NCBI RefSeq assembly: GCF_024498075.1
Contig: NZ_JANHOF010000002.1
Coordinates: forward strand, 230,431 to 294,430
Source of the DNA: Paenibacillus mendelii
Lineage (GTDB): Bacteria; Bacillota; Bacilli; Paenibacillales; Paenibacillaceae
Length of the DNA: 64,000 bases
Direction: 5' to 3'
The number at the start of each line of letters is the position of its first letter. Positions within the stretch are counted from its first letter, which is position 1. Under the pieces are notes generated by a model. It did no database searches. It had not been told where the DNA came from and saw only the letters and a list, made by a program, of their open reading frames with translations. Positions 33,070-59,246 of the stretch are shown piece after piece. A program made the position numbers and the translations under genes.

Positions 33070-33135
33070 ATGGTTTCACTCCCATTCGTTACGTCCGCTT
33101 ACGCAGCGGTCTTTCTGCGCGCCTGTCAGGCCGTC

Positions 33136-40449: not shown

Positions 40450-40480
40450 GAGACAGGCCGCTAAAGCCTGTCTCCTTGTT
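40450..40480. terminator. terminator of the carbohydrate operon
   Basis: A perfect 9-bp stem GAGACAGGC/GCCTGTCTC (40450-40458 / 40466-40474) with T-rich flanks on both sides. It lies 23 nt after the stop of the last operon gene (minus strand). Confidence 0.65.
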
Positions 40481-40496
40481 CTATTCCCCACTATTC

Positions 40497-43010
40497 TTAT
40501 TCATCAAGATATACTTCAATCGCACTGATCCGGGCTATGCCCATCATATCTCCCTTGTAACAATTGACCCTAAGCGCCCGGATTTTAATGACCGGGAACC
40601 GCATAACGACCGTTGTCAGGAGATTATCCCGAATCGTTGCTAGAATGGTCCATTCGTCTCCGTCCCAGCTCTCCATATCAAAATCTCTCAATTGTACCCC
40701 GGTCCCCGTCGTATACAGTTCAACATGATTAATGGCCGTTGTCTCACGAAAAGTGATTTGCAGCCATTCAGGACGATCATAGGACAGAATCTCGGAATCA
40801 TCCTCCGGGATCCGGGACGACCAGCCCGCCCAATTGCCATAATTGCCCGTTATGACTCCTGCTGGCCGATAGTTATTTATGTAGTCAGTTGAGGATGCTG
40901 TCACCTCCGCACCAACCAGCATAGGATTGTTGACGATATCTCGGTAACCGGGAATTACATAATCATAGAAAGCAGTCAGTCCCGAGCCATCCATTGTGGC
41001 GGCAGCAATTTTGACCGCCCCTTCCTTCATGCAGCTAATAACACCATAGGGACTAATGACAGCTTTATCCGTTGCCGTTATTCCATCCTCCTCAAAGACC
41101 GACCATAATATCCTCTGATCTCGTGTGTCTGAAGGATTAAATTCTGTAACAAACTGATGCTCCTCCCGCTTGATCTGAATGGATCTTACTATAGATGGCG
41201 GAGCGTGATTATCCTGTCTGGCCATCAGGATCATTTTTGTTGCGGTCAGTTTCCCTGCATCCCCTATAGCGTTAACCCGTACTTTGCCATTTCCCATTGC
41301 AGTAAGTAAGCCGCAAGAATCGATTATAGCCAGTTCAGTCGGTGTACCGTCCAAATTCGTTACACTCCACTGAGGTTCGGCCCCCATCCCTCCCGGGTTA
41401 ACCGCTGCCGACATTGCCATAGTCCCATACCGGGTAAAAATCGTCGTAGCCTGATTAGGACTTGAGACCACTAACTTAGGAGCAAGTTTGGTCTCGTCAG
41501 TGACTACCAGCAGCATCCAATCAAAGCGATCCGGTTTGTCCGGAATGGGCCATTCGCCGTTATGAGGCTGGATCGCATTAGAAATCAATGTATATTCACC
41601 TGTTCTAGTGTTATACCAGTGGGCCTTATAGCGTGAATCCTCCATTTCTTTGAGCGTGCCGGTTGACAGCGAGGTACTTGTGAAATAAGCGGTATAGATT
41701 TTTGAATCATCTGTCATAAGAAAGGCATGATTATTGTCCGTGAAATCTCCATAACGTATATCCTTAAACCGCGGGGTCAATCTCCACCATTTCAGGGTGG
41801 AATAAAACTGTTTGAAATAAGTCATCTGGCTCCCGCCGGCTGCATTCAGGCCATCGAACCACCGGTAATAAGGACCGTAATGAAACCAGTCATCAGGTGA
41901 GTTATTCAAGGCCCATACGCCTTGAACGCCATACCCGAATCCAAAGGAGCCGCACTGAAAAGCTCTGTATGCCGAAGTACGGGCACTGGCGGTTGGCTGA
42001 TTATTAAATTCATACCGCACTTCGTAAGCGATATAAGGCTTCACCGTTTCGGCATGCCAGAAAGATTCAAAATAATCTTTCGACAAATCAAGCGGTTGCA
42101 GCGCATGCCAGCTGTGACAATATTCCCCACCCCACCCTGAAACAGCATTGAACTCCATATGCGCCGTCAGCGGGTGCTTGTAACAATCATGATCATAGAT
42201 GGATTGTGCGATAATTTTCCAATGCTGCGGATCGATTTGGTTGTAGAAGTTCGGATCAACTTCCTGGGCTGTCGTCCATAATACAGGATATGCTCCATAT
42301 CTGGCTTGCCAATAAGCCCCAAGCTTCCTCAGAAGAGCAGCATCCGTTGTACTCAAGAAACTGGTGAACGTCAGAGTGGCATTGGCATGAACGAGTCCAC
42401 TGTCCGCGATATACTGAAATTTGCGGTCCAGATCTTGCAGCAGCGCCAGCGAATCTTGTTTAATGCCATGAGTTACATCCAGATAGTTTCCTGTTGTCAG
42501 GAGAGGCTCGGATTGATAGACTGTAAAGCCTTGACTGACCCGGTGGTCAACCATATATTTGAACTGTGAATCGATTCCGTCAACATTCGAGGCATTGAAA
42601 TCTTCTGACGGGAGGAACCAATGCGTATCTCCGAGATAGAAGAACGGCGTCCCGTCGTCATAAGTAAAATAACGGTGATGGTCACATATCCGCAGAAAGC
42701 CATGTTTATAGATTTCCAATAAACCACGGTAGGCGATACAGTTGAAAGCTATAGGTTCGCTAATATTTAGGGCCTGGTTGGTTTCATCCGAACACTCCAC
42801 GATTACAGTCCATTCCCCTATAGCAGGGGGCGCAAACCTTACCTTCCACTCATTGCCCCCATCCCAAAATGCCTGACGGGCAAGCCTTATTCCTTCAGGA
42901 CCGTTGAAAAAAGCCGTTACGTCCACATCCATAAAAGGATTTTCGTATACTGCAGCACTTGATAGTGTAAACTCCAAACTGCGCCACTGCTCTGTATCAG
43001 CAAGTTTCAT
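40497..43010 (-). CDS. DUF5060/DUF4038 glycoside hydrolase without signal peptide
   Basis: An 837-residue enzyme. Domains in order: DUF5060 beta-sandwich (about 8-95), DUF4038-type TIM barrel (about 105-490; relatives include GH140 apiosidases), two Ig-like (Big_2-like) regions (about 505-680) and an F5/8C-like module (about 690-837). Acidic residues in TAQEVD (about 250) and AYEVRYE (about 330) align with those of the secreted paralogue at 59552 and are catalytic candidates. There is no signal peptide, and the frame upstream shows none, although such modules are normally outside the cell. The ATG at 43010 follows GAGGTGGAG; a GTG four codons earlier is possible. Last gene of the operon. Confidence 0.82.
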   Translation of the reverse strand: MKLADTEQWRSLEFTLSSAAVYENPFMDVDVTAFFNGPEGIRLARQAFWDGGNEWKVRFAPPAIGEWTVIVECSDETNQALNISEPIAFNCIAYRGLLEIYKHGFLRICDHHRYFTYDDGTPFFYLGDTHWFLPSEDFNASNVDGIDSQFKYMVDHRVSQGFTVYQSEPLLTTGNYLDVTHGIKQDSLALLQDLDRKFQYIADSGLVHANATLTFTSFLSTTDAALLRKLGAYWQARYGAYPVLWTTAQEVDPNFYNQIDPQHWKIIAQSIYDHDCYKHPLTAHMEFNAVSGWGGEYCHSWHALQPLDLSKDYFESFWHAETVKPYIAYEVRYEFNNQPTASARTSAYRAFQCGSFGFGYGVQGVWALNNSPDDWFHYGPYYRWFDGLNAAGGSQMTYFKQFYSTLKWWRLTPRFKDIRYGDFTDNNHAFLMTDDSKIYTAYFTSTSLSTGTLKEMEDSRYKAHWYNTRTGEYTLISNAIQPHNGEWPIPDKPDRFDWMLLVVTDETKLAPKLVVSSPNQATTIFTRYGTMAMSAAVNPGGMGAEPQWSVTNLDGTPTELAIIDSCGLLTAMGNGKVRVNAIGDAGKLTATKMILMARQDNHAPPSIVRSIQIKREEHQFVTEFNPSDTRDQRILWSVFEEDGITATDKAVISPYGVISCMKEGAVKIAAATMDGSGLTAFYDYVIPGYRDIVNNPMLVGAEVTASSTDYINNYRPAGVITGNYGNWAGWSSRIPEDDSEILSYDRPEWLQITFRETTAINHVELYTTGTGVQLRDFDMESWDGDEWTILATIRDNLLTTVVMRFPVIKIRALRVNCYKGDMMGIARISAIEVYLDE

Positions 43011-43061
43011 TGCCAGCTCCACCTCATTCTTTGTTCCAAAGGACGGGAACTCACTTACCCG

Positions 43062-44189
43062 TTATCCTATTATTCCGATAAAAGCTAACCGAAACCGGGT
43101 ACCTTGACATCTGGGGCCGTTCCCGTGAATGACTTCGATTTCTGCCTCATGTCTCTCTGGCAGCAGGTCCTCTGCCACTGTCTCGATGTGAAACAGGCCT
43201 TCAGCCGGACACCATTCCGCACGTTCCATCCTTATTTCCAGAGCCTCTCCATCATCAATCCGGCAGAGGAAATCCGCAGAAAACATCCCGAAATCGAACC
43301 CGAGCGTCAGCCCCCTTCCGTAGAAGACAAAGCGAAGTTTCGCTCCGACAGCAGAAGTTGTCAGCATTTGCTCCATCCAGACCAGATTGACGCTCCTGTG
43401 AACTGCCCACGGCCCCTCCGTCTGCACTTCCCTGAAGGGAACGAAGGAGACATTCCCCCAATGATGCCTATTAAGCGGTTCCGGCAGAACCCGTTCACCC
43501 CGGTTCTCAGTTAACGATGGCACTTCCCCTACACCCGGCTGCCGAATACGCTCCATATGCAGCTGTTTCTCCAGGAACGTGATTACACTTTGAGCATAGC
43601 TTAAGCTGCCGCGATGGGTCGGGTGTAAACCGTCAGGCAGCCATTCTTCCCATGCCATCCTTCCTTTGCGCACTTCCTCGAATGCATAAAGCCCCATCCA
43701 CACCGATCCAATATTATAATGCTCGCCAAGCTGCTCGAGCTCCTTAATCGATTCCGGAACGCCGCCTGCCTCCATCTCTGCATACATGGCCTGCAAGTAG
43801 GTATAGACCAGTACAAGATCCGCCTCGCTACTGGCAAGCAAAAGACGCAGCAGCCCTTCGCGCGACCGACTTCTCCGTTCATGTGGAGCGTAATGATCAT
43901 TCACTGCATATTCCACAAAGACAACATCGCAAGACTTCGCAACGATATCACGCCCGGCTCGAAACACAGCCAGATCGCTGCCTGTCGCTCCAATTGCGGC
44001 ATTCTCAACATAAAATCGCACTTGCGGGTAGGTCTCAACGAGCCAGGCCATGACTTTCTCCGGCCAATTATGGCCTGGTCTGGCCTCCGTAATCGATCCG
44101 CCAAGAAAACCTATCGTCACCTCTCCCCGCTCGATCGCGGCTTGCAGCTTTAGCAGGGAGCTGCGGGGGTTCCAAATTCTTTTGTCCAC
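43062..44189 (-). CDS. SGNH/GDSL esterase
   Basis: A 375-residue two-domain enzyme. The N-terminal SGNH fold has GGSIT (Ser near 32), AAIGATGSD, YAVND and the C-terminal DGLHPTHRG with Asp and His. A second domain from about 215 is beta-rich. It starts with GTG, 6 nt after AAGGAGG. In glycan loci such enzymes usually remove acetyl groups from sugars. It has no signal peptide, so it would act on imported material. It lies 51 nt before the glycosidase gene on the same strand. Confidence 0.82.
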   Translation of the reverse strand: MDKRIWNPRSSLLKLQAAIERGEVTIGFLGGSITEARPGHNWPEKVMAWLVETYPQVRFYVENAAIGATGSDLAVFRAGRDIVAKSCDVVFVEYAVNDHYAPHERRSRSREGLLRLLLASSEADLVLVYTYLQAMYAEMEAGGVPESIKELEQLGEHYNIGSVWMGLYAFEEVRKGRMAWEEWLPDGLHPTHRGSLSYAQSVITFLEKQLHMERIRQPGVGEVPSLTENRGERVLPEPLNRHHWGNVSFVPFREVQTEGPWAVHRSVNLVWMEQMLTTSAVGAKLRFVFYGRGLTLGFDFGMFSADFLCRIDDGEALEIRMERAEWCPAEGLFHIETVAEDLLPERHEAEIEVIHGNGPRCQGTRFRLAFIGIIG

Positions 44190-44254
44190 TCTGGACCTCC
44201 TTATAAATCAAGACCGGCAGATCCGAAAGTGAAGCCTCTGCCGGTCGCTGTCAT

Positions 44255-45655
44255 TTACCTTGTGGCATTAAATTTGTCTGCAGCCGGGCCAAAAATTTCC
44301 GCTATGTTCGCCGCATCGAACATGATTGGCGGTAATCCGCCATTAATAGCGGTCGAATAATCGCCATAATCGACGATATTCATCCCTTGACTGGCACAGC
44401 ACACTTCACCGCTGTATAGCTGCTTAATCGCATCGATATTTTTTCCTTGCCACGCTTTGGCGTTAGTAAATAAATATTGCTGCAGTTCCTCGTTAAGCCC
44501 CCAAGGCGTGTCGCCCCAATCAATCGCGAACTTTCTCCCTTCATCGGAGATCATATATTTATAGTACAACCACGCTTCTTCCTTATGCTTGGAGGCACTT
44601 AATTGTATAAATGGAGCCGTCAAAAGAAGCGTTGGCTGCGATACCGTTCCGCGCGGGAAGAACAGCACATCCCAATCGAAAGCCGCCTGCTCATTGTATG
44701 CGCCGGTCATCCATGGCCCCTGAACGGTGAAGAGTGCCTTGCCTTGCATAAACGCATCGCCCAGACTTTGATCCACGGCGGTTTTACTGTCCGGCGTCAC
44801 TTTATGCTTGGTTTGCAGCTCCTGTATCCACTGCATATCCGCGAGTACTCCCGGCGTGTTCGCTACGCTTTTGGAGCCATCCGCCGTCAAAAACGTATGA
44901 CCTCCGGCATTGCCGTTGGCAATCGCCATGCTGCTGCTTAAATAAACGGCAACCGTGCCGGACGGGTCAATGCCCCACTCCCCTGCTGCCGGGTCGGTTG
45001 CCTTCTTCGCCATCTCCAGCATGTCGTCATAGGTCCAGTCCGGAGCCGGCATTTCCATCCCGTGCTTCTCCAGTAAATCCTTGTTCACGAAGATAAGAAA
45101 AGGAGCGGCATTGGCGCCAGGCAGCGCAAGCAGCTTGCCGTTGACCTTATAAGTATCCAGGAAGCTCTCCGGGAATTGGACATTCTTCAGATCCGGGTCG
45201 GATTCCAGCCGGGGAGCCAGGTCTTCATACAAATCCGCCCCTGAGGTCAGTTCGCTGGTCATGATCAAATCTGCCGGCGTTCCAGCCACCTGCAGCGCAA
45301 CCGCTTTGGCTACAATTGCCGCAGGCCCTTCCAATACGGTCTCCACTTTAATGGTGATCCACGGATAATGTTTGTTAAAGTCTTCAAACATGGCCTTGAT
45401 GTTCGGTTCCTCGCCCGTCCAATTAGTTACCATGGTCAACGTAACCGGGTCGCGTTTTTCCGGTGAGGCTTCATTATTACTCTTGCCCGATGCTTCGTTT
45501 GAGCCCTTGTCTCCTTCATTCTGTGCTACGGCCGGATCTGGTGTTTTTTCTGTATTATTCTTATTGCCGCCGGAGCAGGCAGATACGACAAGCATCATCA
45601 TCATTGCTGCCAGCAATAGAACTACTCTTCCTTTGCTTGCTTTTCTAGTTTTCAA
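44255..45655 (-). CDS. sugar-binding lipoprotein of ABC importer
   Basis: A 466-residue family 1 solute-binding protein. The signal peptide ends in lipobox VVSAC (Cys near 27), then a low-complexity Asn/Lys/Glu-rich linker and the two-lobed binding domain. The TTG at 45655 is chosen because GGAGG lies 8 nt upstream. It should feed the permease pair at 45920-47851. The ligand, probably an oligosaccharide, is not predictable. Confidence 0.85.
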   Translation of the reverse strand: MKTRKASKGRVVLLLAAMMMMLVVSACSGGNKNNTEKTPDPAVAQNEGDKGSNEASGKSNNEASPEKRDPVTLTMVTNWTGEEPNIKAMFEDFNKHYPWITIKVETVLEGPAAIVAKAVALQVAGTPADLIMTSELTSGADLYEDLAPRLESDPDLKNVQFPESFLDTYKVNGKLLALPGANAAPFLIFVNKDLLEKHGMEMPAPDWTYDDMLEMAKKATDPAAGEWGIDPSGTVAVYLSSSMAIANGNAGGHTFLTADGSKSVANTPGVLADMQWIQELQTKHKVTPDSKTAVDQSLGDAFMQGKALFTVQGPWMTGAYNEQAAFDWDVLFFPRGTVSQPTLLLTAPFIQLSASKHKEEAWLYYKYMISDEGRKFAIDWGDTPWGLNEELQQYLFTNAKAWQGKNIDAIKQLYSGEVCCASQGMNIVDYGDYSTAINGGLPPIMFDAANIAEIFGPAADKFNATR

Positions 45656-45919
45656 TTTGATAGCCTCCAATTCAATTGAATCTCGTGTCGTGCACTGCCT
45701 TGCAGCCCCTTGTATCCATTCATAGCCATCCTGTCACTTGCTGTTGTTGCTTGCCTTGCTGTCACTGACATTGCCGACTTCATGCTGCTGTCATTTACAT
45801 GCTGCAGCTCACCCTGCACATGCCCTCGCCCCACGTTACTTCAGCTTCCGCTACATCGCCCTCACCTCCTTGGCGTTCTGTCGTCTGAAGATCTGCTGCC
45901 TCACGCTACCCCGGCTTGC

Positions 45920-46885
45920 TTACTCTACCAGCCCGGTGCGTTCAATCCCCTCCGTGAACCAGCGCTGCGCAACCATATACAGCAAAGTCGGAGGCAGCAG
46001 GATGAGAAATACGGCCGACATCTTGGCTCCTTCTGTCACAGGATTGAGCTGGATGTTGAATTGACTGAACGTATTTCCTGTGAGCACCCGGTCCAAATTG
46101 TCCAAACGAATCGATAGCGGTGTAAAACTTTCGGATAAAAACATAGACGCCTCGTAATACATGTTCCAATACCAGATGAACGAGAACAGAAATACGACAA
46201 TACAGGCTGACTTCGCAAGGGGCAGCATAATGCGCCAGAACAGCCGGTATGCAGAAGCGCCGTCAAGTTTTGCCGCCTCCTCCAACGACTTTGGCTGCCC
46301 ATGAAAAAACTGGCTGAATATAATAATGAACAATGCACTCCGCAGCCCTTGCCCGAATAAAGCCGGAATCAGAAAGACGAACGGGGTATTCAGCAGCCCC
46401 AGCTTACCGTAAAGGACAAACAGCGGGATGACATATACCTGGGAAGGAATCAAAAACGTAAGCACGACCAGAAACAGCAAAAATTTTCTCCCCGGAAAAC
46501 GCAGCCGTGCCAGCCCGTAGCCTGTTATCGCACAAATAATCACTTGAATGCCGGAGCAGAACAGCGCAATAACCAGCGTGTTAGTGAACGCTTGCGGATA
46601 TTCCAACCCCTTCCACGCCTTGACAATGTTGTCGAAATTCCATTCGCGGGGCAAATATTTCACGGTCGGATCGATCAGATCACTGAGACTTTTGAACATC
46701 GTTGTCACGATGTATAACAGCGGCTGCATGTACAGAAAAGCCACTATAGTAAGCACAATATAGAGAAGCAGTTTGGCAATCCATCCGTCATTGCTGTTCA
46801 TTCCAAGAAGCATCAGCTTGCCCCGCTGGCCTTGCCTTCCTCTGGCAAAGGATTTAAACCGTTCCATTACCGCTAGAACCTTCAT
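45920..46885 (-). CDS. carbohydrate ABC permease (MalG/LplC-like)
   Basis: A 321-residue permease with six helices. The EAA loop EEAAKLDGASAYRLFWRIMLPLAK binds the ATPase. The start at 46885 is the second ATG after AAAGGAG, for better spacing. It pairs with the permease at 46967. It is followed by a 264-nt gap (45656-45919) before the binding-protein start; the gap holds a strong Shine-Dalgarno followed at once by ATG-TAG. Confidence 0.87.
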   Translation of the reverse strand: MKVLAVMERFKSFARGRQGQRGKLMLLGMNSNDGWIAKLLLYIVLTIVAFLYMQPLLYIVTTMFKSLSDLIDPTVKYLPREWNFDNIVKAWKGLEYPQAFTNTLVIALFCSGIQVIICAITGYGLARLRFPGRKFLLFLVVLTFLIPSQVYVIPLFVLYGKLGLLNTPFVFLIPALFGQGLRSALFIIIFSQFFHGQPKSLEEAAKLDGASAYRLFWRIMLPLAKSACIVVFLFSFIWYWNMYYEASMFLSESFTPLSIRLDNLDRVLTGNTFSQFNIQLNPVTEGAKMSAVFLILLPPTLLYMVAQRWFTEGIERTGLVE

Positions 46886-46966
46886 ACGCATCTCCTTTCC
46901 TGGACCTGTTCACGGGTATTCTCCAGTTGTAGAACAATTGCATCTGCACAACTGCCCCCGCCCCTA

Positions 46967-47851
46967 TCAACCACTCTTCCTTGACCTGCTGGTGAACCAG
47001 ATGACAGTCAGCATCATGACAAGCACAACCGCAAAATATAGCCATGCCATCGCACTGGAGTAACCGTAACCGGTTTTCTGCAAAAACATGTGCTTGCTGA
47101 CAAGCTCCATGATCGGATTAAAGGGAAAGGTAAACATATCTACAAACGTATACAACGTACACAAACCTATAAATGGCTTCATGGCAGGCAGCGTAATTTT
47201 CCAGAAGCTCTCCCACGGCGAAGCGCCGTCAATGCGGATCGCCTCATAAATGGAACCGGGTATCGTCTGAAAACCGGCAATAAAGATCAAAATTTGTACA
47301 CCTGAATACCACAAAATAATAACCGCTTTGCTCAATACGCCCAGTACAGGAGCTGCAAACTGCACTCCGACCGCGCTGGCGACGATTTCCTCCAGTCCGT
47401 ATTGGCTAATAAACGGCAAATCCCCCTGCCCTTGACGGAACAGTTCCATAAGAACCTGGCCGGTAGCAAAGATGACGGGCAGGAAGAACAGTGCGCGAAA
47501 CAGCATTCTTCCTCTAAACCGCTGATTGAGCAAAATGGACACAAGAAACGAGAACAAAATAATGAGCGGAATCATAATGACAACTTCCTGGAAATAAAGC
47601 AGCAGCTTGACCGAGTACTCACTGTCCTCTGCAAGCACCCTTCTGTAATTTTCAATCCCGACAAAGGTGTACTCCATGCCCTCCGCCTTAAAAGCAACCG
47701 TATGAAAACTGATAAACAAGGACCAGCCTATTGGAAATGCCATAAATACCGCAAAGCCAATCGTCCAAGGGAGAAGAAACATATAGCCTACGCTGTATTC
47801 CTTCCATCGGTACAAGCTTCGTCCCCGACGGGATGTGCCGGTTGCGGCCAT
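46967..47851 (-). CDS. carbohydrate ABC permease (MalF/LplB-like)
   Basis: A 294-residue permease with six helices. Its EAA loop is YEAIRIDGASPWESFWKITLP. It starts 3 nt after the DUF5696 gene stops, so translation is coupled. It lacks the long N-terminal extension of MalF, as is usual in Firmicutes. Confidence 0.87.
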   Translation of the reverse strand: MAATGTSRRGRSLYRWKEYSVGYMFLLPWTIGFAVFMAFPIGWSLFISFHTVAFKAEGMEYTFVGIENYRRVLAEDSEYSVKLLLYFQEVVIMIPLIILFSFLVSILLNQRFRGRMLFRALFFLPVIFATGQVLMELFRQGQGDLPFISQYGLEEIVASAVGVQFAAPVLGVLSKAVIILWYSGVQILIFIAGFQTIPGSIYEAIRIDGASPWESFWKITLPAMKPFIGLCTLYTFVDMFTFPFNPIMELVSKHMFLQKTGYGYSSAMAWLYFAVVLVMMLTVIWFTSRSRKSG

Positions 47852-47854
47852 AAT

Positions 47855-50071
47855 CTATTCCTCCCTGATCACCCGAAAGGTTGAAGTATTGTAGTCAACT
47901 ATCGTTTGGGTTCCGCCTTCATATTCCGTGGCATATACACCATTTTCTAATTTGCGGTGGCCTACAATCGCTTGGCCGTGTACGGCTGAAAGCTTCTTGA
48001 AGGCTGTATATTCTTGCAATATCCGCTCCTTCCATTTTGCAAAATGAGTGCTGAACAATTCACCCGACAACGTGTAACGAATATGAATAGAAGGCTCATC
48101 AGTCACAATAAAGGAGGGTACCGCCCCATATTCAATCGCTTTCAGAAAATGATCCTGATACCTGTCGCGCAAATTGCCCGCCGTGAACGAATACGGCATT
48201 AAACCATGTAGCACAATCGGATAAAACGGCACCGTCTCATCAATATTGAAATCGTAGCTGGATTCAAACTCCAGCTCATGTATACTGTCAGCTGCGGCGA
48301 GAATGTAATCGCCTCCTCCTGTGGCTGCTGCATGACCGAGCTGCTGCCCGGCATATTCCATCGCCCCCCGGAACAATAAGGCAGTTTGTTCCCGCTCAAG
48401 TTGACGGTCAGGATGATAATCCTTATACACATCCTCGCCATAGCCTGCGAACTTGACCCCATCAGCTCCCAACGATTGCAGCTTGTCGACCGCCATATAA
48501 GCTCTGCCTGCCGATTGCTCCGGGGCTATAACGAACATTCCCTTCTGCAATACAGCCGATCCGTCCAACCCCCGGATTCCATCCGTCCGTGGTGAAGCTT
48601 CCTTCGCATCCTCGCTATACCGGACAAAATCCTGCTCGAACAACACTTTATAACCTAATTGATGTGCCTTCTCCACCAATGAACGCGCACCCTTGTTCCC
48701 GCCAAGCGCCTGCTCTGCAGGAAAAATACCGGTCTGGCCCGCTGCACCGCCCGCTTGCCAGCCTCGCAGCGTAATATCCATCGCTTCAACGCCGCCTGCC
48801 GACAGCTCGGAGATCATCTCCTCCGCCTGTGCAAATGTAGTTGCTGCAGCATACCGCCTCCCGACGGCGGTAGAGCCGGAGCTGCCGCCTACAATCGTAA
48901 GCTGGAGCGGCAGCTTCTGCTCCTGATCCATCTTTTTCCTCAAGTCGCCGTTTTGTTGAAGATAGGTACGATAAGCTTGTGCCATCTCCACATAACCGAC
49001 ATTCTCTCCGGACAGCAACCGGTATTCAATGACTCGGTCCTGCTCGATGCGTTTCTGCTGAATGGTATTTACAGGGGGGCTTAACTGGCTCAGCCGCTGG
49101 CCGTATTCTACCCGGTAGGTCCACTCCGCGCCTACTGTATTAAAGCTGGACACCGTTCCGGCAGCCTGGGCCTTGATCAGGCTGTCGAATTTTCCATCCT
49201 TTAAAATCGCGACGAATGCCTCACTGCCGCGCTTGAGCCCAAAAACAGGATAGGTTATGGTCGCTTCCCGTACATTGTCCGGCTTCACGGGTTGATTTGT
49301 CAGGTCATTCCCATACATCGGATAACGGTAACCAAGACCTGCCAATGTCCGATTTTCGTCGAAGCGGATGATGCCACCCGGCCCGTCCGGCACAAAGAGA
49401 TAGCCTTGTTCGTCCTCATTGCGGGCAGCGCCGAAGAACGGAAGTACCTGCAGCGAGATCATAAAGTGATCACCCGCTTCGCGAATGCCGGTTGCCGGAA
49501 CACGCACCTCCATACCATGTTCGGTCAGTGCATATTGAATGGTGAAGGAGATTTTCAGCTTGGAGAAGCTGTATGTAACCTGAAGCCCCTCTGCGGCAAT
49601 CCGGTACGTTTTCGTTATGTCCTTGTTAGTCGCGTTCGTAATTGACCGCTGTGTTTTGCCTCTCTCATGATATTCAAGAATAAAGGGCGACTGCAGATTG
49701 GACAGCAATGTTCCTTTGACTGTCTCATGCGCCAGCTTTTCCTTCTGCGGGTTGCTGCGCCACAGATAGTCCGACTGCTTGTTTCGCAGCGCAATAACAC
49801 TCGTTTCCGGGTTCAAATACAGCGCGTAGCCTCGGTTCTCCAGCACAGGTGCGAACCCCTCCGCATCTGTCTGGCGAGGCCGCCATTCCTCTCCCTCGTA
49901 CAAAGACAACCGTACTGGCGATGGAAGAGGCAGCCCCATCTCTTGGAGCGTGGGCACTCTTTCCTTGCCGGTGAACAGCAGGAGCGCAGCGAGTAATAGC
50001 AATGCAGCAATGGCGGCCGGTATCCCATACTTCCGCACCCGCAGCATTGCAGAGCCGTCAAGCTTAGCCAT
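47855..50071 (-). CDS. DUF5696 membrane-anchored protein
   Basis: A 738-residue protein held by one N-terminal helix (about 14-33), with the rest predicted outside. Its middle has beta-sandwich-like segments, and from about 390 a TIM-barrel-like region (LTIVGGSSGS, DITLRGWQAGG, GYKVLFEQDFVRY) as in glycosidase-like folds. The DUF5696 family is common beside carbohydrate ABC genes in Paenibacillaceae; its reaction is not known. A glycosidase-like activity at the cell surface is inference. The ATG overlaps the restored YIP1 reading frame of the gene before it by 8 nt. Confidence 0.75.
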   Translation of the reverse strand: MAKLDGSAMLRVRKYGIPAAIAALLLLAALLLFTGKERVPTLQEMGLPLPSPVRLSLYEGEEWRPRQTDAEGFAPVLENRGYALYLNPETSVIALRNKQSDYLWRSNPQKEKLAHETVKGTLLSNLQSPFILEYHERGKTQRSITNATNKDITKTYRIAAEGLQVTYSFSKLKISFTIQYALTEHGMEVRVPATGIREAGDHFMISLQVLPFFGAARNEDEQGYLFVPDGPGGIIRFDENRTLAGLGYRYPMYGNDLTNQPVKPDNVREATITYPVFGLKRGSEAFVAILKDGKFDSLIKAQAAGTVSSFNTVGAEWTYRVEYGQRLSQLSPPVNTIQQKRIEQDRVIEYRLLSGENVGYVEMAQAYRTYLQQNGDLRKKMDQEQKLPLQLTIVGGSSGSTAVGRRYAAATTFAQAEEMISELSAGGVEAMDITLRGWQAGGAAGQTGIFPAEQALGGNKGARSLVEKAHQLGYKVLFEQDFVRYSEDAKEASPRTDGIRGLDGSAVLQKGMFVIAPEQSAGRAYMAVDKLQSLGADGVKFAGYGEDVYKDYHPDRQLEREQTALLFRGAMEYAGQQLGHAAATGGGDYILAAADSIHELEFESSYDFNIDETVPFYPIVLHGLMPYSFTAGNLRDRYQDHFLKAIEYGAVPSFIVTDEPSIHIRYTLSGELFSTHFAKWKERILQEYTAFKKLSAVHGQAIVGHRKLENGVYATEYEGGTQTIVDYNTSTFRVIREE

Positions 50072-52125
50072 ATTGCCCCACCTCCTTGGATAACTCGTAG
50101 ATAAAGTTGTAAACGTTGTAACTGAGCGCCGATAGGATGGTCAGCATGATCCAGATGACCCCGATCGTCAACAATGTAATGACTGAGTTTCGCAAAGACT
50201 CGATAAAATCAAAGTTATGAATAACCTGGGTCATGACAAACAGGAGAACGCCAATCCAAATCCACATGGCCTTCAGCAGCGTATCGGCAACAATCCGCTC
50301 CTCAAGTACAATAACGTTTGTCAGCACGAGATAAGGCACCCACCATAAATACGATGTACGGAGCGAACGCGAATGTGCTGGCCTGCAGCACTTCCCTCAG
50401 ACGTCCCTCGCCATCTTTGACCGTGCTGACCAAATAATTGGCGATGACCCAGGTTAGCCAGCCGCCGAGCAGGATCAGAACCGGCCATATCGGGTTGCGC
50501 AGTTCGGGAGGCAATGGATTGAAGGCAAAGCCTGTTGCATACGTCTGACATACCGACAGAACCACGACAAGCACTAAAATCGTCCCAATTGTAACCGGCG
50601 ATATACGCCGCTCTTTCAGCCGGTAGAAGCCTTCATACGGGTGCAGCAGCAAGTAGCCGAAATCCCGCCACTCCTGGCGGTACACAGCAATCTTCGTCTG
50701 CCTGTCCGCTCTGCCTGTATAACTCCGTGTACGCCGCAGTACGAATGCAAGCACAAACCAACAAGCTGCCGCAAGGAGAACGGCGTAAAACAGATATTGT
50801 CTGATCCAGCCAAGCCTGACATCCCAGAAGGCCTCGGAATATCCTTTGGCATCTTTTCCTTGCTTGAAATAACCGATTGCATCGGCATAAGCTCCCCGGT
50901 AAATCGCAGCTTCACCCAGCCCCCGATATCCGGCGTCAATCATTTCGTTCATCTCGATTGTCCGCTCCCAATAAGGCTCGCTGTCCGCATAGTAGCCTTT
51001 GTCGGACAGCGACATCGCCTCCAGCACAGCACTGCCGAACTCCGTCCGCTCGAAAATTTGCACCGTGCCCAGCTTGCTGTCCGCAACCCATAGCTCCTGC
51101 TTGGAATTAAGCGCAATCGCTGTCGGGAAACGGAACAGACCGAATCGCTGCGTATCGGCACTCATGCCGCCGAAGCGAAACAGCGCCGTCCCTTGCGGAT
51201 CGTACACGCCGATCGTATTGAGCGGACTTCGCGAGATGGAATACAGAAAGCCGTTGCTGTCGATGGCTGTATCGACAAGCTGATCCAGATCGCGGAAGCT
51301 CTTTCCCCTCAACATATCGATTCCGCCGGCATTAAGCCTCTTGATTTGTCCGCTGAACACCCCGAAATTGGACGTCAGCAGAAATCCGTCCATGTCGATC
51401 GTTACATTCGCAACCTCACCGGGCCGGGCGGCTTTCTCTTTCTTCAACTGCTCTGCCGACAATACCCAACGCTGCACCTGCTGTGTGAAGGTCAGGCTCG
51501 CCTTGTTCGCTCCGAAAAAGCCCGTGAATTGTCCGGCTTCGTTCATGCGAACGATCCCCTGATACGAGCCTTTGGACACGACATACATCGTTCCCCTCGC
51601 ATCCACCACAACCTTATGCGGAACATAGAAATAGGCTTCCGGCAGCATGCTCGAATCCGGTTTTTCATATGCCCGGATAAATTTGCCCGACGCATCGAAT
51701 ACAGCTATTCGCTCATTGCCGGTATCTGCAACGTAGACAATCCCGTCAGCCGTGACGAATACGCCTTCAGGCGCATTCAGGGAGCCTTCTCCTTCATCCA
51801 GACCGAGCTGGCTTGCAAAACTGCCGTCCGCATGCAAAATGACGATACGATTATTCCCGGTATCCGCAACATAGACCGTATCGTTGGCTGCAATAAACAA
51901 ATCATTGGGCTCGGCGAAGGCAAGCATTCCCTCCCCCATTCCCCCTTCCCCCCGGCCCGTCACGATCATGCGCGGCGTATAGAGCGGTTGAGTAGACCAA
52001 GCGTCACTTCCGCCCGTGTCCGGAATCACATACTCCGTCTGGTATGGCAGCGCTGCTGAAACGACTGCGGGGAAGAACAGGCAGCACAGGCCGATGAGCA
52101 CCATTATTCGTCTTACTAGTGGCAC
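50064..52125 (-). pseudogene. NHL-repeat/YIP1 membrane protein, apparent frameshift
   Basis: Signal peptide (residues 1-24), NHL-type beta-propeller repeats (NNRIVILHADG, NERIAVFDASG; about 70-360), a short TPR-like region (about 370-430), one helix (443-464), then a YIP1-like helical domain. The main frame stops after 607 codons at 50302. The YIP1 domain should continue: after residue 595 (APYIVFMV) the next frame reads PYLVLTNVIVLEE and runs 90 more residues to 50064, with further helices. The shift is at CCC (50339-50341). The restored protein would have about 686 residues. GTG start with GGGAGG 7 nt upstream. Either a sequencing error or a true break. Function unknown. Confidence 0.75.
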
Positions 52126-52146
52126 TGCGGAACCTCCCTTTTTCGT

Positions 52147-53010
52147 TTATTCTTTAATGCCGGAGTTGACCATGGTTTCCATCACCCTGTTCTGAAACAG
52201 CAGAAATACAATCAGATTAGGAACAAACATCATCAATCCGGCAGCCGCAATCATCCCTTGACCGGATACTGCATTTTGCGTTGCTTGGCTTAATGTCTGA
52301 ATGTAATAAGGCAATGTCTTGAGCGTCTCTTCATGAATATAAAGCGTAGACGCTTCCGTATCGCCCCATACCGCTTGAAAGGTCAAGATGGCTACGGTCG
52401 ATATTGCCGGAGCGGCGAGCGGTACGACGATGCGCATAAACATGGTCCATTCCGTTGCTCCGTCGATCTTTGCCGCTTCCAGCAGGGAGTCAGGAATTTG
52501 CCCGATAAACTGAATGAGCAGAAATACCGATACCGGCGCGGCGATAAACGGCAAAATATGTGCGAAATAAGTATCGCTGACGCCAATGCCGCTTATAATC
52601 AGGTACCTGGGAATCTGTACGGTCTCCGCAGCGAACATCAGCGATACATATATGAGCGACATGATGACAGAGCGAAAATGGAACTTAAACTTGGCCAGCG
52701 CATAAGCAGCCATTGAGCTGACGACGACGACGGCAACCAAAGTAGTGCTGACCACGATGACACTGTTAAATAAATAACGTGTAAAGGGCACCAGGTCATC
52801 CGAAGTGGCATTCCATAACCGCTCAAAGTTTTGCGCAGTCGGGTTTGACACCAGAAAACGCGGCGGGAACAAAAATAGCTCATTAAGCGGTTTAAACGCA
52901 TGGTTAAACAAAAAGACAATCGGCAGCATCATGAACAGGGCGAGCCCCGTCAAGGCAATGAGCAAGCTGAGACGCCCCAAACGAACCTTTCTTGTTGTCA
53001 TCACGTGCAT
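52147..53010 (-). CDS. carbohydrate ABC permease (MalG-like)
   Basis: A 287-residue permease with six helices. The EAA loop is LEAAKIDGATEWTMFMRIVVPLAAP. It pairs with the broken permease at 53016-53980 and starts 5 nt after it; an upstream extension of the frame is unlikely to be coding because it overlaps that gene. It should serve the CBM-fused binding protein. Confidence 0.85.
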   Translation of the reverse strand: MHVMTTRKVRLGRLSLLIALTGLALFMMLPIVFLFNHAFKPLNELFLFPPRFLVSNPTAQNFERLWNATSDDLVPFTRYLFNSVIVVSTTLVAVVVVSSMAAYALAKFKFHFRSVIMSLIYVSLMFAAETVQIPRYLIISGIGVSDTYFAHILPFIAAPVSVFLLIQFIGQIPDSLLEAAKIDGATEWTMFMRIVVPLAAPAISTVAILTFQAVWGDTEASTLYIHEETLKTLPYYIQTLSQATQNAVSGQGMIAAAGLMMFVPNLIVFLLFQNRVMETMVNSGIKE

Positions 53011-53015
53011 GTTGC

Positions 53016-53980
53016 CTATTCGCCCCCCTTCGGTATGAACAGGCGATAGCAGAACCGGAGCACCAGATAGCTGACGATAAGCAGCATGACGCAAAGTGCA
53101 GAAGCATAGCCCAGCTCGAAGCGCAAAAAGGCATAATCGTCGATATGGTTAATGATCAGATGTCCCGCATATTGCGGCGTTATCATTTGTCCGGTAAGCT
53201 GCACAGATATGCTGCCGGCCTTTAATGTTCCGACAATCGTCATAATGGCGCTAAACAACATTTGCGGCTTGATCGACGGAATCGTGATATAGAACACTTC
53301 CTGCAGCGGATTGGAAATCCCGTCTATTCTCCCGGCCTCATACATCTCCTGATTGACGGTCTGCAGACCGGCCAGAATAGCCAGAAAGCCGATGCTGAAA
53401 CTGGTCCATAACGAAACAATAATCATAACGCCCATTAGATACCGCGGATCCTGCAGCCATAGCTGCGGGCTGTCAATCAAGCCAAGCTGCAGCAAAATAT
53501 GATTGAGATAGCCCCTACGCGATCACCGCTGAAAGCAGCCCCCCATACAACGACGAGCGCAACGCCGCCGGCCAGCGAAGGCGCATAAAAAGCCAGCGTG
53601 TAATAATCCCTGATTTTCTTCGGAAGCTGGTGAATGAGCCAGGCGAATCCGAAGGAAAGGATATAGCCGCCCGGCCCGACGATTATGGCGAATTTCAACG
53701 TGTTGGCCAGAGCAAATTTTAGAAAAATAAGATCCTGAGATAAAATCGCGATAAAATTATCGATGCCTACAAATCTCGGGAACGAGAATCCGTTAAACGA
53801 AGTTAAACTGAGCAGTGCGGCAAGCAATACCGGAATAAAAATAAAGACAAGGAAAGAGATCAGGAACGGCGCAAGAAACAAATAGACGACCCTATCCCGC
53901 CACACTTCCCGAAAAAACCGGCACAAGCGGCTTAACGGACTTCCCGCAGCCCCCCTCACGGCAATAGCCTGCTTCATCAT
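53016..53980 (-). pseudogene. carbohydrate ABC permease (MalF-like), apparent frameshift
   Basis: Two open frames make up one permease of about 320 residues. The first (53477-53980) holds helices 1-3 and ends after GDRVG; the second (53016-53495) continues with NHILLQLGLIDSPQLW and helices 4-6, with the EAA loop YEAGRIDGISNPLQEVFYIT. The frame is lost at CCCC (53512-53515): one base less or two more than needed. Its ATG overlaps the stop of the binding-protein gene by 4 nt. If the break is real, this transporter cannot work. Confidence 0.8.
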
Positions 53981-56900
53981 CGCAACGTCCCCCCATCAAA
54001 TTCATTCGGGTGCGGAGTACCAGGGACATGCAAATTAATATCTTCAGGCAAACCGAAATCTTCCAGCTTGCGCCTGATTTCCCGCTGCAGGCTGTTGTTG
54101 CCATCCTCCAATGCTTCTTTGGCCGGTATCCCCCGCAAAACCCGATCGTTCCAAGCAAAATCCATCACCCGGGGCAAGAAATAATGCCCTGGAACAATTG
54201 GAATATTGTTAGCCCAACGGAATTGCTCCTTCATGGCATCCAATTCTTCCTTTGGCCATGGCATAGAGAATAACGCCTCTACATTGGCAGAGTTCCAGCG
54301 GTACTCCAGGCCGTACAAGGATTCGACATCCTCGCCGTAACGGCTCTGCACCCCGGTTGAAGTCCACCAATTCAGGAATGTCCAGGCATCCTCCTTGTTG
54401 TCGCTATTCTTCATCATCATCGCTCCCGTAGTTGGCTGCTGTGCCCAACGGGCAACTGTACCATCTTCCCCGGGCATACCGGGAATGGGCGCCATCTTCC
54501 AATTGCCGGTTATATCGGGTGCAGCAACGTTTAGCATGACATACATCGAGAAGTCAGCTATGCCGACCGGTACATCCCCTTTGCGAAAATGCTCGATGAA
54601 GGAAGGGACGTCCAGCGGAAACAAATGTTTGTCGAACAGCTCCGTCCATTCGGTAAAGGCTTCGAGCGATTTCTTCTCACCCAGCTTCGAATCTCTACCT
54701 GCTGCGGAGTAAAGATCGGCTTTATTTTGCAGGAAGAAAACGCTAAATTCTTTCGGTGGATAGAAGAATGTCATTCCTTGCTCCTGCAGCGTCGGCATCA
54801 TCCGGTATACATCGTCCCACGTCTGTGGCGGCTCCAGCCCCAGGCTTTGCAAAATATCGGTACGATAGTACAGCGCATAGAAATTTTGAATTTCCGGTAT
54901 GCCGTACGTGCCCCCATTATAGCGATAGCTGTTCATAACCCCAGGCAGAAACCGCTGCTCCACCTCTGAAAAACCGGGAAACTGCGAGAGGTCGGCCGCC
55001 GCATCGCGCATCGCATAATCAGCCGGCATCTCCGGGGAGACGCCAAGAACGACATCCGGCTGGTCACCGGCCGCATTGCTGAGAATGAGCGCATTCGGAT
55101 TCGGCATGAGATTGACATTCACCTTAATGCCCGTCTCCGGGGTGAAGTATTGTTCGATCATTTGGTTCAGTACATCGACATAATCGCGTCCTCGCTGCAC
55201 CCAAACGGTTACAGCCTCCTCCTTGTTAAGTGATTTCTCGTTATACTGCATGGAAAATGTACGAAAAAAATCAACTGTGGAATACCAGACATAATCTGCG
55301 GTACCCGCTTCGCGTAATCCTGTATCCGCGCCTGGCGTCCGCAGTGCCAAAGCGTCGATCATCACCATTTGGTCGGAGAGCTGATTAAGCCAGAGTGCAA
55401 GGTTATTTTGCGAAACGGTCAGGTCAGCCAGCCTGTTAGGAATATTATCCACATTGCTTGAATAAGTCCGCAGTGTCTCTACCGCAATTTGAATGGCTGT
55501 CACCGTATCAGTCTCCGCCTGATGGACTCCCTTCAAATAGGCTGCTGTCCGTTCAAGGCGCTCAATCATCGCTTGTAAATCAGTCCTGATGCCGGGATAA
55601 TACAACTCCACGTCCCAGGTACGGTTGCGGTCCATGTTGGGCGCATCCCGGCCAAAGCCAAAATTGCCGGTTATGGTCCTCAGCTTGCGATCAAAAGCAG
55701 CCATTTGCGATAGCGCCTGTTTAAGTGAAAGAGCTGCAGGTTCTACGACAGATGCATCTGCCGTCATACGCAGAACATGCTTTCCTTTCCCCAAATAAAA
55801 CCTGAATGGGATTCCATCGTTACTCTGCAGCGGATGAAGACTAAAATTGCCGCTGGAAGGCAGCGCATAAGCAAGCAGTTCACGGAATGGCACCTTGCCG
55901 TCAATCGTAATGGTGCGGTAAGAATTGGACTTTCCCCGCCATGATTGTAAATACTTGATCACTATTTCATAGAATCCGTCTTCCGGAACCTCAACCTCCC
56001 ATTCCACCCACTCCCCGGCAAGCCGCCAGCGTTCTCCTCCAATCGCGTTATACACAATGCGTCCCTTGGGGTCAGGTGAAATATGAGGTTCACGCAGCGA
56101 GACGGTCTGAATGCCAGGCTTGGATTTGCCCGCGAACTGTTCCCCCTCGAACACTTTAGCCCAGCCTTGATTGTCATTGCTCTTGCTTTCGTTGCTGGAG
56201 GCAGGGGATTGTCCGGCAAGCGCTTGCTGTTTATTCGACATCGCATCCTTATATTCGGCATAGGAATGCACCTGCTCCGGTGCAACAAACCTCAGACTGC
56301 CGAGCGCCACCGGTTCCCTGCCACCGGTCATTCGCAACACGTGACGCCCTTTCGTTAAATGCCATTGTAACGGCTGCGATGAAGCTTTGTAATCAGCTGC
56401 TGCCATAGTCCGCCACCCTATGCGTTCGGTTTGAACCGGCCGTAATTCATTGCCCAATTCATTGCGGCTATACGGATACTGATCGTCTTTCCATACACGG
56501 TCCAGCGTAATGGATGCCGCCTCCCGGAACGGGACGGCACCGTCAATCTCAATCCCTCTGACAACCGGAGAGAAACTGCCTTCCAATGGCAAATAGTCGA
56601 GTTCCATCTCGTACAGTCCTTCTTCTTGAACCTCCAGCTCCCATTCCACCCAACCTGTGTCGTTCATCCAGCGCATGATATCACCGCCTGTCTCTGCATC
56701 ATGCGTCCGCTCGATGTCCGCATCGGCTGATTTGGCCGTATAGCGGGCGGCAGCAATGACAATCTCGCTGTTTTTTTGTGCCTGTTTCAAGCCCAATGAA
56801 GAATAGGTACGCTGAGCGTCCAAATAGTAGGACGGCTGATGCTCTTCGCGGCCTCCTAAGCTGCCGGCAGCAGTAAGCTCGTCTACTGGCAGCTGCGGAT

Positions 56901-57003
56901 AGTTTACAGTTTCAGCATTAAGCGAGCGGATAGTCAGGAACAGCGCTGCCGCAGCGATGAGCATGACAAGTGTGACACTCGGTTTGTTCAACTTCCGGAA
57001 CAT
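53977..57003 (-). CDS. solute-binding protein fused to two carbohydrate-binding-like modules
   Basis: A 1008-residue exported protein, more than twice the usual length. An N-terminal hydrophobic segment (about 9-28) has no lipobox Cys, so it is a signal peptide or an anchor. Two similar modules follow (about 100-240 and 290-428), each with WVEWE-EV near its start, a VPFRE strand and ending KG-HVLRMT; they look like CBM6/35-type beta-sandwiches. Then a helical linker (about 430-590) and a family 1 solute-binding domain (about 600-1000). Its end overlaps the permease start by 4 nt and its beginning overlaps the ATPase gene by 16 nt. Confidence 0.85.
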   Translation of the reverse strand: MFRKLNKPSVTLVMLIAAAALFLTIRSLNAETVNYPQLPVDELTAAGSLGGREEHQPSYYLDAQRTYSSLGLKQAQKNSEIVIAAARYTAKSADADIERTHDAETGGDIMRWMNDTGWVEWELEVQEEGLYEMELDYLPLEGSFSPVVRGIEIDGAVPFREAASITLDRVWKDDQYPYSRNELGNELRPVQTERIGWRTMAAADYKASSQPLQWHLTKGRHVLRMTGGREPVALGSLRFVAPEQVHSYAEYKDAMSNKQQALAGQSPASSNESKSNDNQGWAKVFEGEQFAGKSKPGIQTVSLREPHISPDPKGRIVYNAIGGERWRLAGEWVEWEVEVPEDGFYEIVIKYLQSWRGKSNSYRTITIDGKVPFRELLAYALPSSGNFSLHPLQSNDGIPFRFYLGKGKHVLRMTADASVVEPAALSLKQALSQMAAFDRKLRTITGNFGFGRDAPNMDRNRTWDVELYYPGIRTDLQAMIERLERTAAYLKGVHQAETDTVTAIQIAVETLRTYSSNVDNIPNRLADLTVSQNNLALWLNQLSDQMVMIDALALRTPGADTGLREAGTADYVWYSTVDFFRTFSMQYNEKSLNKEEAVTVWVQRGRDYVDVLNQMIEQYFTPETGIKVNVNLMPNPNALILSNAAGDQPDVVLGVSPEMPADYAMRDAAADLSQFPGFSEVEQRFLPGVMNSYRYNGGTYGIPEIQNFYALYYRTDILQSLGLEPPQTWDDVYRMMPTLQEQGMTFFYPPKEFSVFFLQNKADLYSAAGRDSKLGEKKSLEAFTEWTELFDKHLFPLDVPSFIEHFRKGDVPVGIADFSMYVMLNVAAPDITGNWKMAPIPGMPGEDGTVARWAQQPTTGAMMMKNSDNKEDAWTFLNWWTSTGVQSRYGEDVESLYGLEYRWNSANVEALFSMPWPKEELDAMKEQFRWANNIPIVPGHYFLPRVMDFAWNDRVLRGIPAKEALEDGNNSLQREIRRKLEDFGLPEDINLHVPGTPHPNEFDGGTLR

Positions 57004-58136
57004 GAAGAGATTGCCTCCCTGCTGCGGATTGCCAGCCCATCTTCCTTACGGAAAAACAACGCCTTCTCCATTTGAATCACGGCCTCAGCTTGATCATCGA
57101 CCGCAATATTTGTATGCGCTTCCATTCGCGAAACGACCGGCTTATCCTGGCCCACATTTATGAAGACGAATGTATCGGAGCCCATCAGCTCCACCATCTC
57201 TACACGGCCTTGAATTTTCCATTGGGGGAAGTCTTCAAGCGCCATTGCCCCCGACATAATATGTTCCGGCCGGACACCGAGTACAACTTGCCGTGAAGGA
57301 GCGGGATCTTGGCGCAAATCATACGCTCGCCTGTCTGGCACTGCCAGCCTCAAGCGCTTGTTTTCGAAGTAAAGCTGGCCGTCCCGCTGCGTAATTTCCC
57401 CTTCAATGAAATTCATCTGCGGTGTTCCAATAAACCCGGCGACAAACATATTTAGCGGACGATCATACAGCTCTTGAGGACGGGCGACCTGCTGAATCCT
57501 GCCATCCTTCATCACAACGATCCGCGTTCCCATCGTCATAGCCTCTGTCTGGTCGTGCGTCACGTAGACGGTTGTCGTCTGCAGCTGGCTATGCAGCTTG
57601 ATCAGCTCGGCACGCGTCTGAGCGCGCAGCTTCGCATCAAGATTGGACAGCGGTTCATCCATCAGAAATACTTGCGGCTCCCGGACGATAGCCCGTCCAA
57701 GCGCCACGCGCTGCTTCTGGCCGCCGGAGAGCTGACTGGGCCGTTTGCTCAACAAATGCGATATTTCCAAGATTTTTGCCGCCCGGGTCACCTGAAGCTC
57801 AATTTCATACTTGGCAACCTTGCGCAGTTTCAGGCCAAGCGCCATATTCTCGTAAATGGTAAGATTCGGGTACAACGCGTAATTCTGAAAAACCATTGCA
57901 ATATCGCGATGCTTGGGCGCTACATAATTAATAAACTTATCGCCGATATAGATTTCCCCCTTGGAGATCTCCTCCAGGCCGGCAAGCATTCGCAGTGTCG
58001 TTGTTTTGCCGCATCCGGAAGGACCGACGAGCACCAGAAACTCGCCGTCCAGGACGTCAAGATTAAAATCGATCACAGACGGGCGATCCTCATTGCCATA
58101 GTATTTATATACCTGTTTAAATTTTACATCGGCCAT
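56988..58136 (-). CDS. carbohydrate ABC importer ATPase (MsmX/UgpC type)
   Basis: A 382-residue ATPase with C-terminal TOBE-type domains. Walker A GPSGCGKTT near 40, signature LSGGQKQR near 135, Walker B VFLMDEPLSNLD and THDQTEAM follow the MalK/MsmX pattern. It is the only ATPase in the operon, with two permease pairs, so it probably energises both; MsmX-type ATPases are known to be shared. The ATG at 58136 has AGGAG 9 nt upstream; an ATG three codons earlier sits too close to it. First gene of the operon. Confidence 0.92.
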   Translation of the reverse strand: MADVKFKQVYKYYGNEDRPSVIDFNLDVLDGEFLVLVGPSGCGKTTTLRMLAGLEEISKGEIYIGDKFINYVAPKHRDIAMVFQNYALYPNLTIYENMALGLKLRKVAKYEIELQVTRAAKILEISHLLSKRPSQLSGGQKQRVALGRAIVREPQVFLMDEPLSNLDAKLRAQTRAELIKLHSQLQTTTVYVTHDQTEAMTMGTRIVVMKDGRIQQVARPQELYDRPLNMFVAGFIGTPQMNFIEGEITQRDGQLYFENKRLRLAVPDRRAYDLRQDPAPSRQVVLGVRPEHIMSGAMALEDFPQWKIQGRVEMVELMGSDTFVFINVGQDKPVVSRMEAHTNIAVDDQAEAVIQMEKALFFRKEDGLAIRSREAISSCSGS

Positions 58137-58226
58137 ATCTGACATCTCCTAACCTGTTGCTTCACTCCATACTTTTCTAGCATAAAGGAATCTGATGCAA
58201 TTTTATTTAGCTGCCATAACGCATTT

Positions 58227-59202: not shown

Positions 59203-59246
59203 GAAATCCACCTTTTTAATCCACACACAGCAAGCCTCCCCTGTTA

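Follow-up and report, generated by a model that had tools for sequence, protein, structure and literature searches.

The window, a 64,000-nucleotide (nt) stretch of the Paenibacillus mendelii genome (8.13 Mb in 79 contigs), has eleven minus-strand genes running from 58145 down to 40497 according to open reading frame (ORF) calls and Pfam. They encode, in order, an ATP-binding cassette (ABC) ATPase, a solute-binding protein (SBP), permeases A1 and A2, an NHL-TPR-YIP1 membrane protein, a DUF5696 protein, permeases B1 and B2, a second SBP (SBP2), a GDSL esterase and a GH140-type enzyme. The original prediction named these eleven genes in this order, and all are present on the minus strand, but A1 and the NHL/YIP1 gene are frame-broken. 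The seven genes from the SBP to B2 form a cassette that recurs elsewhere, and the comparisons below make a strong case, at the level of the family, that it is a true, conserved system.

The ATPase (56988..58145) is of the MalK/MsmX type, with ABC_tran, OB_MalK and TOBE_2 domains by Pfam, and phmmer aligns its residues 4-374 with MsmX (PDB 6yir) at E 1.2e-121. Of the MsmX residues named in part of PMC7658222 (D77, R104, E110 and K154), the first three are kept and K154 is replaced by Q, by a hand count on the 6yir alignment. The Pfam matches include SBP_bac_1/8 binding proteins. The first of these (53977..57003, 1008 amino acids) is membrane-anchored, with an N-terminal anchor, CBM6/35-like modules, a helical stalk and a C-terminal SBP_bac_1 domain (611-886). 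Its N-terminus is hydrophobic and without cysteine, and the helical stretch matches coiled-coil proteins. Profile comparison gives a CBM35-like carbohydrate-binding module (5x7g, E 1.8e-7) and supports the second CBM-like module, while the first is weak, as is the CBM6 match (E 0.04).

The four permeases are of the CUT1 type. A1 (53016..53980) lies in two pieces, 53477-53980 and 53016-53495; A2 (52147..53094) probably has its true start at an internal ATG near 53010; B1 and B2 occupy 46967..47851 and 45920..46891. The EAA motif, which is the ATPase contact of such permeases, is present in A2, B1 and B2. Between the two pairs are the NHL propeller-TPR-YIP1 protein (50064..52125; ORF 50302-52125, with the remainder in another frame and the model taken from the intact own-genome paralogue P0122) and DUF5696 (47855..50071), which has an N-terminal membrane helix (6-34) and a GH129-like ectodomain (74-738). 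The many gaps or overlaps of 3-26 nt claimed for the eleven genes hold for most core junctions, but the ORF calls also give gaps of 75 nt (B1-B2), 249 nt (B2-SBP2), 65 nt (SBP2-GDSL) and 39 nt (GDSL-GH140). An apparent gap of 230 nt before DUF5696 is due to the frame break in NHL/YIP1.

The same block occurs throughout the P. mendelii genome. Gene order was read by one script in 16 own-genome loci, 20 loci from a sample of 299 Bacillota genomes and 80 named loci. The genome has 16 full-length DUF5696 copies, and all of them lie within a block of stalked SBP, A1, A2, NHL/YIP1, DUF5696, B1 and B2 on one strand and in the same order; one copy (L020) has an extra SBP between A2 and NHL/YIP1. The seven genes are contiguous in 15/16 own, 12/20 phylum-sample and 65/80 named loci, and the run from NHL/YIP1 to B2 is contiguous in 16/16, 19/20 and 74/80. 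Median gaps between neighbours are -8, 2, 14, -4, -4 and 10 nt; these values are biased toward overlap, since each ORF is called from its first possible codon.

Searches of the 299 genomes at a threshold of E<1e-100 found DUF5696 in 28, spread over 11 families by family codes. These 28 genomes are also the ones with NHL/YIP1, and one further genome (G223) matches it partially. The N-terminal region of the SBP was found in 27 of them and in two others (G098, G140); in the 28th (G097) a contig end truncates the SBP gene (E 2.7e-30). Nine other Bacillota genomes have only weak DUF5696 matches, and of 14 control genomes two, Thermotoga maritima and Lactococcus lactis, have weak matches below the cutoff. 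Within the genus Paenibacillus, 21 of 22 genomes have a DUF5696 match, and another genome of the genus has 19 long matches (25 minus 6 fragments). Among named relatives of DUF5696, the nearest are in Paenibacillus and Cohnella. The whole block is also present, by public annotation, on a rumen plasmid of Butyrivibrio fibrisolvens (L164; NZ_CP146964.1, 147016-168770), with a GH43 gene before it, two SBPs after it, and NHL and YIP1 as two genes. The recurrence of the cassette shows that the arrangement is not a product of chance. The predicted unit of two permease pairs with two kinds of SBP is supported as a conserved one. The word DUF5696 gave no match in the open-licence literature searched.

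Two further groups of matches were seen in the same sample. In family f80 (G163, G274, G295, G139, G253, G187), separate open frames 592-599 amino acids long match DUF5696 weakly and are possibly GH129-like enzymes. Family f13 (G007, G050, G087, G116) has shorter frames, of 246-561 amino acids, that match the N-terminal region of the SBP more weakly, and no full DUF5696.

The cassette consists of two modules, A (SBP-A1-A2) and B (NHL/YIP1-DUF5696-B1-B2), a division made because B stands alone in some loci and the modules are in reverse order in others. Among the 16 own paralogues, pairwise distances correlate among all seven genes (r 0.85-0.94), with r 0.86-0.88 between A and B permeases and r 0.94 between NHL/YIP1 and DUF5696; none of 1000 permutations reached the observed r for any pair of the seven. 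Across 96 cassettes from many species r is 0.85-0.96 among the seven genes, values to which species history also contributes. The correlations indicate that the cassette was duplicated and diverged as a whole. The condition that would have refuted the original prediction, two independent transporter sets that merely happen to be adjacent here, is not borne out, as the two sets recur together and co-diverge.

An EAA-like motif (loose pattern) is found in A1, A2, B1 and B2 of all 16 own copies, window included, and in 98/104 A1, 99/103 A2, 98/110 B1 and 113/115 B2 across loci. These are CUT1-type importers and are predicted to take up sugars. The ATPase gene lies directly before the cassette in 8/16 own, 62/80 named and 0/20 phylum-sample loci, and is therefore an optional part of the proposed arrangement of two transporters on one ATPase. 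The window ATPase may energise more than one importer.

The DUF5696 and NHL/YIP1 proteins had been described as surface proteins with no established function. For DUF5696 the fold can be identified, since it has the full three-domain architecture of GH129. We take E478 of the GH129 enzyme NagBb to be the second catalytic residue of that family. D435 is a catalytic residue of NagBb that is common to the GH129-like enzyme of Zobellia, according to part of PMC5698469. HMMER places D435 at window residue 543 (Gly), with a low posterior, and E478 at 584 (Thr). In the predicted model, barrel strand 4 ends at 542 (Ala542-Gly543) and strand 5 (580-584) at 584 (Thr584-Gly585); these strand ends favor 542/543 and 584, and we prefer 542/543 for the D435 site, whose position differs between alignments. 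In an alignment of 236 rows, Asp is found at 542 in 70 rows and at 543 in 20, and 146 rows, the window (Ala-Gly) included, have neither. Glu is found at 584/585 in 26 rows, and both Asp and Glu in 9. A quick tree of 116 rows requires no fewer than 20 changes of the Asp state at 542/543. By the HMMER site, the catalytic Glu appears to be missing in the window protein and in most members, and the catalytic pair is probably absent in most, a reading that depends on the alignment and the model. Other positions are kept in 228-236 of the 236 rows, namely W438 (236), Y360, E647 (234), N633, R560 (234) and H622 (228). Our reading is that DUF5696 would form a glycan-binding cleft for which classical catalysis is dispensable, with a rearranged active site as the main rival.

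The observed gene set, order, co-occurrence, co-divergence, folds and EAA motifs can be combined into a mechanism in which we infer glycan transport, hand-over between parts, a scaffold and a shared ATPase. Module A would consist of the stalked SBP with its carbohydrate-binding modules and permeases A1/A2, and module B of NHL-TPR-YIP1, DUF5696 and permeases B1/B2; an additional SBP frequently lies close to module B. The two MalFG-type pairs would require a MalK/MsmX-type ATPase, for which some copies have a gene alongside while the others presumably borrow one. The stalked SBP would capture glycan fragments at the wall, the membrane-anchored GH129-fold DUF5696 would bind glycan and pass it to importer B, and NHL-TPR-YIP1 would be a membrane scaffold keeping the parts together. 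Once in the cytoplasm, the oligosaccharides would lose their ester groups and be cut. We give an even chance of being correct to such a reusable Gram-positive glycan-import chassis, in which DUF5696 is the receiver and NHL-TPR-YIP1 the scaffold for modules A and B.

Several observations weigh against this chassis, and there are three alternatives. In the first, DUF5696 works as a surface glycosidase whose catalytic residues are rearranged, and it trims the glycan just before import so that the importers take different products, such as a released sugar and a shortened chain. The full GH129 architecture favors it, as does the active Zobellia GH129-like enzyme, which keeps only one of the two GH129 catalytic residues (in part of PMC5698469), and so do the near-invariant E647, R560, H622 and W438. 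The placement of D435 also varies by method. MAFFT sets it at 551, where Asp is kept in 229/236 rows, so the Asp would be retained if D551 is the counterpart of D435. This placement is disfavored because E478 then falls at 640, far from strand 5. With hhalign D435 falls at 547, which is Asp in the window protein and in 10/236 rows, and E478 is not reached. The 90 rows with Asp at 542/543 could themselves be enzymes. The strand ends and HMMER point instead to a site without Asp in most rows and with repeated changes of state, and Glu at 584/585 is infrequent, so that an active DUF5696 is a tentative alternative. A second possibility is that two separate importers take up two products of one polysaccharide and are co-inherited through joint use, with NHL/YIP1 and DUF5696 serving importer B alone and no physical link between A and B. 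In its favor, module B lacks module A within the fetched stretch in some genomes (L055, L058, L067, L071, L072 (f42, f56) and L152), the modules are reversed in L062, L069 and L146, and a further SBP on the same strand is found in 16/16 own, 16/20 phylum-sample and 62/80 named loci. Against it are the co-divergence of A and B in the own paralogues and their co-occurrence in genomes even when not adjacent, neither of which is proof of contact. Separate importers are a plausible alternative that we do not favor. The lack of an adjacent ATPase gene in all 20 phylum-sample loci also counts against the chassis, and the role of YIP1 as scaffold is an analogy with a single protein, YknW (in part of PMC4887032).

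The third alternative concerns the window copy, which may be damaged, since two of its seven core genes are broken. Permease A1 is not one open frame (break near 53500-53515), and NHL/YIP1 is interrupted near 50340, inside the YIP1 domain, the rest of it being read in a different frame as far as 50064. In the other 15 own cassettes each core gene is one ORF, A1 included, except that NHL/YIP1, a single ORF in 11 of them, has two ORFs in four (L014, L015, L016, L023). On the other hand, both breaks adjoin short G runs and could be assembly errors, and the remaining core frames are open. A decaying pseudo-operon is a serious possibility that falls somewhat short of even, and the reading of the family is unaffected either way. 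The two-ORF form of NHL/YIP1 is taken as natural because the annotation of the Butyrivibrio plasmid gives NHL and YIP1 as two genes and other genomes have them as two ORFs, although the ORFs called in L014 overlap by 217 nt and a frame break may be present there too. Separate adjacent NHL and YIP1 genes or ORFs were seen in L014, L015, L016, L023, L053, L056, L059, L061 and L164, and a single gene elsewhere. Fission or fusion of this kind supports a joint function.

The remaining genes of the window bear on the substrate. SBP2 (44255..45670, by Pfam) has a lipoprotein-like N-terminus and is a possible partner of B1/B2. The GDSL esterase (43062..44189, by Pfam; PDB 6hfz, E 2.4e-20) has no hydrophobic N-terminus and is probably cytoplasmic. 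The GH140-type DUF4038/apiosidase enzyme (40497..43022; PDB 3kzs/5msy E 7e-10, 8t9w E 1.7e-7) also lacks a hydrophobic N-terminus and has an apiosidase-like catalytic domain (PF13204, E 1.1e-37); release of apiose is predicted, in a family that is broad. Together these N-termini suggest that esterified oligosaccharides would be imported whole and trimmed inside. The nearest orthologous cassette, in Paenibacillus nasutitermitis (DUF5696 56% identical), has the second SBP in the same place (63%) and a GDSL esterase (56%), and none of three further genes scanned there encodes a GH140-type enzyme.

Other own copies have different neighbors, namely GH29, GH20, GHL6/GHL10, GH88, GLAA-B-type (which we take to be GH110-type), GH109-type, GH114-type, DUF4855, NanE, MocA/isomerase pairs and regulators. 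Near cassettes of other species, GH95 or a WbsX/pectin-lyase-like protein was seen. Since the neighbor enzymes vary among copies, the cassette is not tied to one glycan, and the substrate is set per copy. The suggested acetylated plant glycan is consequently not supported in general; for the window copy, homology of the GH140-type and GDSL enzymes makes an acetylated plant cell-wall glycan plausible, its plant origin being a guess. Proteins without a Pfam match (E 0.001) were seen near cassettes at L009:15691-17898 (735 amino acids), L018:5278-7011 (577) and L020:2652-4376 (574), and are possible new glycan-active enzymes.

An AraC-family gene (58306..59226, minus strand; AraC_binding/cupin and HTH_18 by Pfam), a probable regulator, lies upstream of the ATPase gene. 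It is preceded by a terminator-like stem and T run (59508-59483, minus strand) and, farther upstream, by a second GH140-type enzyme (59552..62431, minus strand, by Pfam) that has three F5/8 type C modules and an N-terminus resembling a signal sequence, likely in the same pathway. Genes for a MocA-type oxidoreductase, a xylose-isomerase-like protein, a further SBP and a two-component system also lie upstream on the minus strand. An inverted repeat 3' of the last gene (40450..40474), detected on the plus strand with the same stem on the minus strand, is a possible terminator. Terminator-like sites are only somewhat commoner in the region than in shuffles (25 against 17.9 expected, standard deviation 3.8). 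Elsewhere in the window (30441-34086), a ZnuA-type zinc SBP and two ABC-3 permeases form an ordinary zinc importer that adjoins a penicillin-binding protein gene.

The cassette resembles CUT1 importers such as MalEFGK2 and the MsmX-driven systems of B. subtilis in its SBP_bac_1-type SBPs, MalF/MalG-type EAA permeases and MalK/MsmX-type ATPase, but differs in having two permease pairs in one conserved block, a stalked CBM-like SBP and two extra conserved membrane proteins. Unlike NagBb (PDB 5wzn) of GH129 and the GH129-like Zobellia anhydrogalactosidase (5opq, 8rzk), DUF5696 is membrane-anchored and lies beside a permease pair, and most members lack the catalytic Glu and probably the Asp. As in Gram-positive polysaccharide-utilisation loci, a regulator, an ABC importer and glycosidases share one locus; to our knowledge no such locus has the NHL/YIP1-DUF5696 pair with tandem permeases, and none was found in the literature searched by titles and abstract openings. 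YknW, of the YknWXYZ ABC exporter in Bacillus, likewise belongs to the YIP1 family, acts together with an ABC transporter and reportedly modulates how that transporter assembles (part of PMC4887032), but it serves an exporter, while YIP1 in the cassette, either joined to an NHL-TPR protein or encoded after it, accompanies importers. The cassette is a variant of the CUT1 importer with a GH129-fold subunit that is probably, though not certainly, catalytically degenerate in most members. A bolder proposal, which we consider unlikely as it stands, is a new class of surface machine in which two MalFG-type importers are physically joined through NHL-TPR-YIP1 and share, as their glycan receiver, a GH129 glycosidase retired from catalysis. 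Paenibacillaceae would have amplified the chassis, to 16 copies here, and would redirect it by changing SBPs and neighboring hydrolases, making it a Gram-positive counterpart of the Sus system in logic and not in parts.

If the proposed chassis is true, it would show how Firmicutes that lack an outer membrane retain glycan at the surface and share it between importers, and it would give a function to two unnamed protein families. The cassette would also be a marker for new glycosidases, because large Pfam-free genes adjoin several copies.

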